From contig CALUWA010000003.1 of assembly GCA_944324365.1 (NCBI GenBank), positions 62,001 through 126,000 on the forward strand: DNA of 64,000 nt, given 5' to 3'. Below, in pieces: positions 33,234-61,224 of the stretch (position 1 is the stretch's first letter; every line of letters begins with the position of its first letter). A program made the translations under genes and the position numbers. The notes beneath the pieces were generated by a model. That model ran no database searches, had not been told where the DNA came from, and worked only from the letters and a program-made list of their open reading frames with translations. The stretch is from Candidatus Gastranaerophilales bacterium (lineage in GTDB: Bacteria; Cyanobacteriota; Vampirovibrionia; Gastranaerophilales; Gastranaerophilaceae).

Positions 33234-34262
33234 TCAAGGTAAATTTTTCCAATAGCCTTTTTCTCCTGTATCAGGATTTATGTCATTGACTGCAAAATAG
33301 CTGCAACCTATGCCATTAGCTTTTTGGTTTGATTTTGAATTACAAGGGTCTCCTGCACGTTGTATTTGATATTCAAATTTATAGTCCAGCTCTTTCAATT
33401 CCTCATCCGTGTAAGCTTTAGTTTGTTTAATGGGTGTTAATGTATTATTTTTAGGATTTATATAAAATCTGAAAATGTCATGTCCTAGCTGATTTGGTTT
33501 TTTATATCCATTTGTATCCAGAGTTACATATACCTTACCTTCATTAATGTGGAAATTCATCCAGGCTCCATCACGGTTTTGTCTCATTCGCCATATATTC
33601 CCGCCTCCAGCATATGCATCTTTTTCTGTTACTTCCTGTTTATTATTGTATGTTCTTACTGAGTCTTTTCTGATTACAGTATATGCATCGTTTATCCACA
33701 TACTTTCTGTATTTGATTTGTTTAACGCGTTATATAGTATTCTGTAACAAAAATTGTTATTTGGATAAGGTATGACACCATTACTTTCCCCAGAATCAGG
33801 GTCTACTTTATAATTAGGATCAAGGGTCGTACAATATTTTGCAAAATCTTCTCCACCATAATTTGCTACAGCTTGTAATATTACCTGTTGTGCAATTGAA
33901 TATCCTTTTTTAAACAGGTTTTCCAGAACAAGTTTTCTATAATCTCGTACAAGCATCGGCATTGTCATTGCCGCAACGATGCCGATTATACCCAAAGTTA
34001 TAAGTACCTCCGCAAGCGTAAACGCCGCTTTCTTTTTGTCATTCTGAGGATGAAATCCGAAGGGTCTTTTTTCCCCGTCATTGTTATATACTTTGTCATC
34101 CTGAGCGATAGCGAAGGATCTCTCATTAAAGGAGATTCTTCGGGCTTCGCCCTCAGAATGACGCTTCCCGTCATTGCGAGGAGCTTGCGACGAAGCAATC
34201 CATAGATCGCGCAACAAATGCGCGATGACAGGCTTTGGTACATCCTGCCTGCCACATGTCAT
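33234..34262 (-). CDS. Prepilin-like secreted protein with repeat-derived N-terminal leader (locus C)
   Basis: The type IV prepilin signature AAFTLAEVLITLGIIGIV (Phe codon at 34022-34020) is followed by a hydrophobic helix and a 240-residue, Cys-containing globular domain ending YWKNLP. The first in-frame ATG (34262) has no ribosome-binding site and lies inside a palindromic repeat, so the encoded 80-residue pre-sequence (with VIAHLLRDLWIASSQAPRND) is translated repeat DNA. The frame stays open upstream to a G14 tract and a leader ATG at 34413 with a GGAGG site, but that ATG is one base out of frame. Prepilin peptidase would remove any leader. It converges with the TonB-like gene 6 bp away. 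Role: surface pseudopilin or secreted protein, inferred. Confidence 0.75.
   Translation of the reverse strand: MTCGRQDVPKPVIAHLLRDLWIASSQAPRNDGKRHSEGEARRISFNERSFAIAQDDKVYNNDGEKRPFGFHPQNDKKKAAFTLAEVLITLGIIGIVAAMTMPMLVRDYRKLVLENLFKKGYSIAQQVILQAVANYGGEDFAKYCTTLDPNYKVDPDSGESNGVIPYPNNNFCYRILYNALNKSNTESMWINDAYTVIRKDSVRTYNNKQEVTEKDAYAGGGNIWRMRQNRDGAWMNFHINEGKVYVTLDTNGYKKPNQLGHDIFRFYINPKNNTLTPIKQTKAYTDEELKELDYKFEYQIQRAGDPCNSKSNQKANGIGCSYFAVNDINPDTGEKGYWKNLP
34170..34230. repeat. Palindromic repeat R3 inside the locus C leader
   Basis: GTCATTGCGAGGAGCTTGCG through CGCGATGACA. Nearly the same 60 bp occurs in reverse at 39212-39273, also inside a prepilin leader and in the same sense relative to the prepilin gene. 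It supplies the VIAHLLRDLWIASSQAPRND peptide. Confidence 0.85.
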
Positions 34263-34356
34263 CGCGGAAAATCTTCGAACTTCACCCTTAGAATGATGAT
34301 ATAGTATAGACTTTAACCTGTCTAAAAGGCTGAAACTATCTCCAAAAGCGGAGAGT

Positions 34357-34413
34357 CTACCCCCCCCCCCCCCGGAGAATATAGGTATAATCGGGATTTT
34401 CAGGTTTTAACAT
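34357..34413 (-). CDS. Leader reading frame running into a G14 tract (locus C)
   Basis: ATG at 34413 lies 8 bases after GGAGGA and encodes MLKPENPDYTYILRGGGG then TAG. The glycine codons are the G14 tract at 34373-34360 on this strand. Removing one G (or adding two) would read through without a stop into the prepilin frame ending at 33234. As sequenced it is an 18-residue peptide. Confidence 0.6.
   Translation of the reverse strand: MLKPENPDYTYILRGGGG
34360..34373 (-). promoter_or_regulatory. G14 homopolymer, putative phase-variation or slippage tract
   Basis: Fourteen C on the plus strand (G14 in the gene sense), the longest such tract in the window, between a leader ATG and an open prepilin frame. 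Tracts of this length are classic slipped-strand sites; length in any one assembly may be uncertain. Confidence 0.7.
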
Positions 34414-34449
34414 TTGATATATCCTCCATAAATTCGAATAACTGTTAAT

Positions 34450-34478
34450 ATTTTAACTTATTTTTAAACCTTTTACAA
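34450..34478 (-). promoter_or_regulatory. Putative promoter for locus C leader
   Basis: TTGTAA (34478-34473) and TAAAAT (34455-34450) are spaced by 17 bp, placing transcription start about 30 bases before the leader ATG at 34413. Confidence 0.5.
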
Positions 34479-38813: not shown

Positions 38814-38867
38814 ATGCAAAAGTTAAGTATAGCGCGGAAATACCGGGAGGGGGGTATTTACATCTAA
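38814..38867 (+). CDS. Leader reading frame with G-rich tract (locus A)
   Basis: ATG at 38814 is 7 bases after GGAGGA and encodes MQKLSIARKYREGGIYI, then TAA. The tract GGGAGGGGGG lies at 38845-38854. One base on, the alternative frame is open without any stop from 38833 through 39963, the end of the prepilin gene. The equivalent at locus B has the same offset. Confidence 0.6.
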   Translation: MQKLSIARKYREGGIYI

Positions 38868-39022
38868 GTCGGGACAAGGGTTTACGCCTATTTGCCATTG
38901 CGGCGGTTCCGGTGTTTTACAGGGTTTAATCAGAAGGTTTTATAAAGCAGTCATTCAGAGGTACGCAGCACCGAAGAAGTGCCTGAGGCACAACATTATA
39001 ACACGTTTTTGTATTACCAATC

Positions 39023-39124
39023 GTCATTGCGAGGTCGGATTTTCGGTAGGGCGCCGTGGCACGAAGTGCCCCAGCCCGCAAGTTGGAGCCGGACGTTACT
39101 CCGGCGACAACCCGAATAATCCGA
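39023..39124 (+). repeat. Dispersed repeat R2, copy 2
   Basis: Nearly identical to 29115-29216. Here it lies in the stop-free stretch between the leader tract and prepilin A, so it could be translated (for example as VGRRGTKCPSPQVGAG) if the leader frame is joined. Confidence 0.9.
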
Positions 39125-39176
39125 TAAAAAGCGAAGCAATCCAGGAAAAGAGATCGCGGACAAACCTTTGGTTTTC

Positions 39177-39273
39177 CGCGATGACATATGGCTGGTGGAA
39201 TGCGTCAAAATATGTCATCGCGCACTTGTTGCGCGATCTATGGATTGCTTCGTCGCAAGCTCCTCGCAATGAC
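39177..39273. repeat. Palindromic repeats at the start of prepilin A, including R3
   Basis: A 13-bp perfect inverted repeat (CGCGATGACATAT, 39177-39189 with 39210-39222) contains the ATG at 39181. It is followed by R3 (39212-39273), inverted relative to 34170-34230. Confidence 0.85.
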
Positions 39274-39963
39274 GGGAAAAAGAGATTCTTCGGATTCCAT
39301 CCTCAGAATGACAAAAAGAAAGCTGCGTTTACGCTTGCGGAGGTGCTTATAACTTTGGGTATAATCGGCATAGTTGCTGCAATGACGCTTCCGACATTAA
39401 TCGCTAACTACCAGAAAAAAGTTGTAGAAACGCGGCTTATTTCTTTCTATTCAAAAATCAACCAGGCATATAGAATGTCTTATGCAGAAAATGGCGATAC
39501 TGCTGATTGGATTATATCGGATAAAAATTATAGTTATAACGAGATGCTGGATTGGCTGGAAAAATATATATTTCCATATATGAAACATTATGATGTAAAA
39601 CAATGTAATGGTAAAACTACCGGTCAAATAGGTGTTTGTGTAACAATTCCTGACGGCAGTCTATACTGGTTTTCAATAGATAATAACGGTCAGGATGTTG
39701 TTTACTTTGTTAATGGAGTATTTGGAGATATAAATCCCCGAAATAAATTTGGGTTTAATTTCTCAAAAAGAGTAAGTTTTGGCTCTACCTATAAACAGAG
39801 TATGGACTTTTTAGATCCGTATATACTCAACTGGGACGGACGAAGAGAATCTTTATTTACCGATGGTACTTGGGGCTGCAGAAAAGGCTGCACAAACTGT
39901 GCTTACTGTACAAAGTTAATCCAGCTTAACGGCTGGGAAATTCCGGATGATTATCCGTGGTAG
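39181..39963 (+). CDS. Prepilin-like secreted protein with repeat-derived leader (locus A)
   Basis: The prepilin signature AAFTLAEVLITLGIIGIV (Phe at 39328) is followed by a globular domain with paired cysteines (CRKGCTNCAYC) ending WEIPDDYPW. The N-terminal 49 residues come from palindromic repeat DNA (VIAHLLRDLWIASSQAPRND) and match the locus C leader almost exactly. The ATG at 39181 has no ribosome-binding site; the frame is open upstream for another 116 codons to the G-rich tract, with no ATG, GTG or TTG. The true start is therefore likely the out-of-frame leader ATG at 38814. The C-terminal WxIxDDYPW is shared with locus B. Confidence 0.75.
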   Translation: MTYGWWNASKYVIAHLLRDLWIASSQAPRNDGKKRFFGFHPQNDKKKAAFTLAEVLITLGIIGIVAAMTLPTLIANYQKKVVETRLISFYSKINQAYRMSYAENGDTADWIISDKNYSYNEMLDWLEKYIFPYMKHYDVKQCNGKTTGQIGVCVTIPDGSLYWFSIDNNGQDVVYFVNGVFGDINPRNKFGFNFSKRVSFGSTYKQSMDFLDPYILNWDGRRESLFTDGTWGCRKGCTNCAYCTKLIQLNGWEIPDDYPW

Positions 39964-60272: not shown

Positions 60273-60326
60273 ATGCAAAAGTCAAGTATAGCGCGGATAT
60301 ACCGGGGGGGGAGTATTTACATCTAA
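60273..60326 (+). CDS. Leader reading frame with G8 tract (locus B)
   Basis: ATG at 60273, 7 bases after GGAGGA, encodes MQKSSIARIYRGGSIYI then TAA. The G8 tract is 60304-60311. The frame one base on is open from 60292 to 61224. The purine tract has the same total length as in locus A although the interrupting A is at a different position. Confidence 0.6.
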   Translation: MQKSSIARIYRGGSIYI

Positions 60327-60444
60327 GTCGGGACAAGGGTTTACGCCTATTTGCTATTGCTGTGGTTATGTCGCTTTAAGAAATTTAGTACGAGGTATTT
60401 ATAAATTTGCAAGGTCGAAGTGTGAAGACATCCTGGGAAAGATA

Positions 60445-61224
60445 TTGCGCAGCGGAGTGCGCGATGACAGATTTTGGTACATTTTACCAACTACATATCA
60501 TTGTGAAAGCTGTAAGCCTGTCTGCGATTTAAAGAAGAATGCGGCATTTACTCTTGCAGAGGTGCTTATTACTTTAGGTATAATTGGTGTAGTTGCCGCA
60601 ATGACAATGCCGATGCTAATAGCTAAATACCAAAAATTAGTTACTGCTAATAAATTGAAAGTAGCTTATTCTTTGATTGCTCAATCAATAGAACGTGCAG
60701 AAGCGGATTATGGCTCCGTAAAATATTGGACGTTTGATTCAGAAGAAGCTTTTGTAAATAAATATGTTAAACCATATTTTCAGGTTGTACGTGTATATGA
60801 TGTTGGTTCTTTGCCGGCAGATTTTCATCATTATTGCAGAACTGGCAATATTTGTGACTCATATGGTTCATTTCGTGCTGCCAGTAAAATTGTTCTGAAA
60901 AACGGTATGATGTTGTCTATGGATATTGACACAACTACAAACAACTATGTGTGGTTGACAATTACGGTCGATTTAAATGGTCTGAAAGACTACAGCACCT
61001 ATGGCAAAGATACATTTGTGTTTAGTTTGGATCCTGATTATGAAAAATTATTACCATACGGTTTAGGAAGAGTAACGGGAGAGTTTACAGATACAATTAG
61101 AGATAAGTCGCGTGCTGCCTTGTTATCAGGATCTGATGCCAGAAGTTGTGTTAATAACGGTATATTTTGTGCAGCTGTAATATTTATGGATAACTGGCAG
61201 ATTAAAGACGATTACCCATGGTAG
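60445..61224 (+). CDS. Prepilin-like secreted protein (locus B)
   Basis: The signature AAFTLAEVLITLGIIGVV (Phe at 60547) is followed by a globular domain with cysteines and a WQIKDDYPW end similar to locus A. The first possible in-frame start is TTG at 60445 (GTG at 60457), neither with a ribosome-binding site. Upstream the frame is open to the G8 tract, one base out of phase with the leader ATG at 60273. A terminator follows the stop, so this is a single-gene transcript. Role: surface or secreted pseudopilin, inferred. Confidence 0.75.
   Translation: MRSGVRDDRFWYILPTTYHCESCKPVCDLKKNAAFTLAEVLITLGIIGVVAAMTMPMLIAKYQKLVTANKLKVAYSLIAQSIERAEADYGSVKYWTFDSEEAFVNKYVKPYFQVVRVYDVGSLPADFHHYCRTGNICDSYGSFRAASKIVLKNGMMLSMDIDTTTNNYVWLTITVDLNGLKDYSTYGKDTFVFSLDPDYEKLLPYGLGRVTGEFTDTIRDKSRAALLSGSDARSCVNNGIFCAAVIFMDNWQIKDDYPW

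Follow-up and report, generated by a model that had tools for sequence, protein, structure and literature searches.

A portable leader and homopolymer cassette as a putative length switch for a large prepilin repertoire in Gastranaerophilales

Most of what is known about homopolymer switching comes from pathogens adapted to a host and from a few commensals. By analogy, the closest precedent for the locus studied here is found in the sortase pili of a gut commensal, Bifidobacterium breve UCC2003. There, a well-signalled leader ORF precedes a pilus ORF without signals, and a G10-G12 tract joins the two ORFs when it loses one G; the majority state is one G too long, and the ON state is enriched in the mouse gut (PMC9187656). 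In Neisseria, poly-G tracts of 9-20 in coding sequence switch the type IV pilus gene pilC and pilin-modifying glycosyltransferases, and a gonococcal genome carries a mean of 18 poly-G tracts in many gene families (PMC5953494, PMC10327513). PilC is a pilus-associated adhesin, however, and not a pilin, while the major pilin varies by recombination with pilS (PMC5953494, PMC10327513). Campylobacter jejuni has G tracts in surface-structure genes including transferases, with an insertion bias at G8 and a deletion bias at G11 and longer; its 18-39 loci per strain (above 80 in one subspecies) belong to many gene families, and no common start cassette has been noted (PMC8355987).

We analysed a stretch of 64,000 nucleotides (the window) from the genome of a Candidatus Gastranaerophilales bacterium, in which the locus at 33234-34478 on the minus strand shows a comparable layout. 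A preliminary description had read it as a translated leader separated by a G14 tract from a prepilin frame one base out of phase, and had inferred that expression is switched by tract length or by slippage. Comparison with related loci supports the switch, and changes of tract length in DNA are better supported than slippage of RNA polymerase or ribosome. In the explanation that we consider best, at a rough probability of 0.76, about 30 loci share a portable start cassette by which a very large prepilin repertoire undergoes slipped-strand phase variation. This reading rests on the observed architecture, reading frames, conservation and state changes between relatives. B. breve, an actinobacterium, has one or two sortase-pilus operons per genome and LPXTG pili, whereas the organism of the window has type IV prepilins, tens of loci, a shared start cassette and, in its lineage, a poly-C version. 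Unlike in C. jejuni, the loci belong predominantly to one prepilin family, and the genome has mismatch repair genes. The proposed mechanism is of a known kind; what is new is how many loci it covers, that its start cassette is portable, the lineage in which it occurs and the existence of a version with C tracts. Our literature search found no paper joining Gastranaerophilales with phase variation, and the only match for Melainabacteria with phase variation was apparently a flagellin survey.

The window locus, all of whose elements lie on the minus strand, opens with a promoter-like TTGTAA-17-TAAAAT (34450-34478), which scores 9/12 in a consensus scan and has related upstream sequence in the family A paralogues. 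Promoter-like matches of such kind arise in shuffled sequence too, and the functional role of this one is inferred. The Shine-Dalgarno sequence GGAGGA (34422-34427) is found in every family A paralogue. From ATG 34413, the leader coding stretch extends over 13 codons to the tract (34374-34413; 40 nt, MLKPENPDYTYIL followed by C), and its family, A, is common to 9 further loci in the genome. The G14 tract (34360-34373), one of five in the genome, is the presumed length switch, and at this length the leader frame ends at TAG (34357-34359). The prepilin frame is at +1 relative to the leader; behind the tract its first stop is the TGA whose last base is 33234. Both the placement of these elements and the open +1 frame agree with the preliminary description. 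The internal ATG 34262, which had likewise been described as having no ribosome-binding site, indeed lacks one, and we rejected it as the true start on this ground and because many sister loci have no start codon there.

Recomputing the translation for tracts of G10 to G17 revealed that G13 and G16 join the leader to the prepilin, as had been predicted, and that G10 does likewise. The other lengths (G11, G12, G14, G15, G17) give products of 17-30 aa only, and a single-base change of the tract toggles the locus between full product and truncation. Judged from sequence, the G14 is best read as the G12 state of family A in which the A before and the C after the tract (A-G12-C) have each become G, and its frame state would then equal that of the G12 paralogues. 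A miscall of one base at this very tract remains possible.

Between the tract and the mature protein lies an open pro-segment in the prepilin frame (34023-34359), largely of dispersed repeat sequence, with stop-free equivalents in all counted fused loci. It is expected to be removed together with the leader, by a cleavage that is inferred. The mature prepilin (33234-34022) runs from the F of FTLAEVLITLGIIG (F at 34022) to the stop. The protein has a class III signal, with the prepilin cleavage motif, Glu5 and a hydrophobic helix, and matches PF07963 (4.3e-6) and TIGR02532, both over the curated cut-offs. Its AlphaFold model (pLDDT 74) displays a long N-terminal helix and C-terminal strands, and a fold search of the PDB with this model gave no significant match. 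The profile match to Geobacter and gonococcal pilin covers the N-terminal helix. The protein does not qualify as an LPXTG pilin with a dedicated sortase, being of prepilin type by Pfam and NCBIfam without a sortase-pilin match. Its processing by prepilin peptidase and its display on the surface are inferred.

The same arrangement had been claimed for two other prepilin loci in the window. Translation confirms the same +1 offset at both, but their tracts are interrupted and not pure G. On the plus strand, a family B leader with interrupted tract GGGAGGGGGG (38814-38854; tract 38845-38854) is followed by an open pro-segment and prepilin (38855-39963, mature from 39328). A second family B leader, also on the plus strand and with interrupted tract GGGGGGGGAG, that is G8AG (60273-60313; tract 60304-60313), stands before another open pro-segment and prepilin (60314-61224, mature from 60547). 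Both prepilins were identified by profile match and translation; the leaders are of the MQK..SIAR.YR family, and each tract has 10 bases. The globular part of the two pilins (39181-39963, 60445-61224) matches Pfam DUF6613, whose function is unknown and of which our literature search found no mention. We also notice that the stretch from tract to prepilin (34023-34359, 38855-39327 and many sister loci) consists of dispersed repeats, open in the prepilin frame and encoding peptides like HLLRDLWIASSQAPRNDG. They may resemble the dispersed palindromic repeats of other bacteria.

The source genome (2.05 Mb, 36 contigs) contains 38 G tracts of at least 8, about 30 runs of at least 9, and five of exactly G14. 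At window composition, chance would give per 2.05 Mb about 5-10 runs of at least 8, 0.2-0.4 G/C runs of at least 10, and 0.001 runs of at least 14. The long G tracts are not due to chance. Thirty of the 38 belong to cassettes of promoter, Shine-Dalgarno, leader and G(n) placed before prepilin genes (6 in frame, 23 at +1, 1 at +2). The two large leader families have different flanks, CTCCA-G11/12-CTAG in family A, which is ON at 11, and TACC-G9/10-TATC in family B, which is ON at 9. PF07963 has 60 matches in the genome, so that about half of the prepilins carry a cassette. Outside the prepilins, G tracts are present in three glycosyltransferase genes, one of GT8 and two of GT2, and in a gene for a polysaccharide pyruvyl transferase, which a G14 tract splits at +1; such genes are among the classic phase-variable classes, which further supports the switch. 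These G11-G14 tracts are in L038 (6285, 5429 and 3683 on the minus strand) and L047 (1993). The MutS1 and MutL genes are intact. Loss of mismatch repair was therefore rejected as the driver, and switching may be slower than in organisms lacking these genes, a point that weighs against the proposed switch.

We propose that replication slippage would add or remove G's in the tract. With the tract in register (G10, G13 or G16 at the window locus), ribosomes coming from the leader would translate a poly-glycine stretch and the pro-segment and continue into the prepilin, from which the prepilin peptidase is expected to cut off all residues before FTLAEV. Neither the leader nor the tract length would then leave a trace on the mature pilin. 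At G14, translation would halt at once. The assembled loci would be mostly OFF, usually by one extra base, and a single-base deletion would restore expression. Slippage within a population and expression are themselves inferred; no read data stand behind the switch, and length heterogeneity within one population is undemonstrated.

Sampling of 247 fused loci from about 20 genomes revealed all three frame states, with 42 loci (17%) in frame and 136 at +1; the remaining 69 are at +2, and G033 contributes 38 of them. Tract lengths range from 7 to 15, and the base is G or C. The in-frame share falls below one third (p about 1e-8 in a binomial test, merely indicative since the loci are related), and +1 leads in 11 of the 13 genomes having a clear majority. 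Simple random switching would predict a less regular default, which counts against the switch. Two further observations do so as well: the interrupted tracts of the two family B loci, where the +1 offset and the open frame are nevertheless kept, and two very close orthologous pairs (G010-G011) with identical tracts. A primed OFF default would fit, by analogy with B. breve, whose fused ORF likewise arises by loss of one G (PMC9187656), and with the deletion bias of C. jejuni tracts at G11 and longer (PMC8355987). Copying of cassettes from a founder could, however, produce much the same picture.

Such regularity could also reflect programmed slippage of RNA polymerase or ribosome, by which out-of-frame DNA would yield a set share of prepilin while the tract length stays fixed. 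Inside genomes the offset is very regular, at +1 in most and at -1 in 38 of 45 loci of G033, where the length is also nearly constant (G10 in 39 of 45); it is steadier than length in G000, G004, G011 and G012. The out-of-frame loci are, moreover, open and under purifying selection. Across lineages, however, there is no fixed offset with a fixed slippery sequence: the offset is +1 in most genomes, -1 in G033 and 0 in 17% of loci, and it varies even between closest orthologues. Interrupted tracts retain the offset, the runs may consist of either G or C, and transcript indels in E. coli or Buchnera do not occur at G/C runs (PMC5574713). The regularity within genomes is explained by cassette copying. 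Programmed slippage thus appears unlikely and less probable than a tract-length switch, but it is not excluded. Mutational equilibrium of tract length was considered as the sole cause of the uniform lengths and rejected; it fits G033 and G023 but not G000, G004, G011 and G012, in which length varies with register.

Comparison of related pilins bears on the same question. Among the best cross-genome pairs (at least 50% identity), 9 agree in state and 10 differ, approximately as expected for independent states at these frequencies, whereas close paralogues within a genome share their state in 15 cases and differ in 2. In one pair with DNA-identical mature pilins, one MAG has an in-frame G10 tract and the other a G11 tract at +1; since their leaders are not the same either, conversion of the start could be involved. 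A state that is uncorrelated across genomes favours change at the DNA level over a fixed programmed offset.

The out-of-frame genes do not look abandoned. All of 144 loci with at least 15 codons from tract to motif (13426 codons in total) are free of stops in the prepilin frame, whereas just 2 of the 288 other frames are. These loci had been selected as open, and the informative part is the contrast with the other frames. No ATG, GTG or TTG occurs between tract and mature start in 41 of 166 loci, and 35 of these 41 are out of frame. For the mature pilins, dN/dS is 0.15-0.25 in four orthologous pairs with both members at +1, and 0.06-0.26 in out-of-frame paralogues; the two nearly identical G010-G011 pairs had too few changes for an estimate. 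Purifying selection on pilins that are out of frame suggests that genes assembled in the OFF state are used often enough to be kept. The low dN/dS and the open frames also argue against decay, that is, against the out-of-frame copies being dead genes. The related concern is that metagenome assemblies give wrong homopolymer lengths: short reads cope poorly with poly-G, and in several MAGs contigs stop at tracts, as reported for Neisseria (PMC10327513). Tracts, leaders and downstream sequence nevertheless recur in many independent assemblies, and we find artefact or decay hardly credible as the explanation.

Cassettes, taken with 50 nt before the leader and 30 nt past the tract, are 83-88% identical between loci of a genome, in contrast to 47-49% for the pilins beyond their first 30 codons; the cassettes of G033 are more diverged (60%). 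The orthologous pilins G004_L183 and G012_L174 of two sister species, 98% identical, carry different leaders. In a related MAG, a pilin resembling that of L041 is preceded by a cassette region with 91% similarity to the one of L057. Copying of cassettes between loci can make one frame state common within a genome. We considered whether the tract and leader act mainly as a DNA or RNA element, such as a recombination site, a G-quadruplex or an attenuator, with the frame relation being secondary. Homogenisation between loci and exchange between orthologous pilins would suit such an element, as would the loci of G021 type, whose leader stands apart from the prepilin, in front of a hairpin. It is difficult to reconcile with the fused loci, which are open in the prepilin frame alone and in many cases offer no alternative start, and with the replacement of poly-G by poly-C in G023. 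We therefore regard an element of this kind as quite improbable. A G-quadruplex or a glycine-specific role as the general function is unlikely given the poly-C version; the swap from G to C suggests that the slippery run, rather than the encoded amino acid, matters.

Among relatives, a pattern of Shine-Dalgarno, ATG, leader and at least G9 is present in 84 of 286 genomes of the order and 14 of 50 genera, every one of which belongs to the family of the window's organism. It occurs in none of 22 sampled genomes from other families, and a reversed-pattern control was near zero. Cassette counts reach 87 per genome. A scan of genome contigs with the family A leader gave no hit; a second scan identified Candidatus Gastranaerophilales MAGs and Candidatus Scatousia excrementigallinarum as named relatives. 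Five cassette-free genomes have just 4-9 prepilin matches each, and those inspected start with an ordinary Shine-Dalgarno and ATG. G023, representing one genus, has 83 prepilin matches and no G cassette but 91 hits to a poly-C pattern, some of them overlapping (for example L587-L615); in 23 sampled loci its tracts are C7-C9, with offsets of +1 in 10, in frame in 7 and +2 in 6. In G010, G011 and G014 many contigs break off no more than about 100 bases from a G tract or leader; assemblies are thus fragmented at these loci, whose real number may exceed the counts. L409 (CALUVM, apparently the single hit G211:C38, in another genus) displays a family B cassette in a genus mostly without the pattern, owing to either horizontal transfer or binning contamination. 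We found no cassette of this type in viral collections. Many viral contigs (L285-L364) have the generic pattern of Shine-Dalgarno and ATG, then at least G10 within about 45 bases.

An uncultured, widespread gut lineage of non-photosynthetic relatives of Cyanobacteria thus appears to place about half of some 60 prepilin-type genes under homopolymer switching, by means of one reusable module. If true, its surface coat would be variable in very many combinations, and the odd internal starts reported by gene callers would be explained. Surface variation in Gastranaerophilales can be tested from existing metagenome reads.

A side branch is seen in G021 and CASDPF, where 36 units of leader and G tract, typically leader-G11, are with one exception not fused to a prepilin (for example L073, L086 and L097). 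A hairpin CCGTG...CACGG lies about 70 nt behind the tract in 32 of the 36, and in 34 the prepilin has its own Shine-Dalgarno and ATG. The sequences of these units are paralogues and not independent observations. Phase variation by transcription attenuation at this terminator-like hairpin is a hypothesis only, and we know of no precedent for it. The wider picture that joins such attenuation to a start cassette of promoter, leader and homopolymer, spread over tens of prepilin genes per genome in one family and giving an unusually large combinatorial on/off repertoire one base from ON, remains tentative. With one more G (G12), the leader ORF would end no more than 20 nt from the hairpin start, or past it, in 28 of 32 units; at present it ends about 60-70 nt before.
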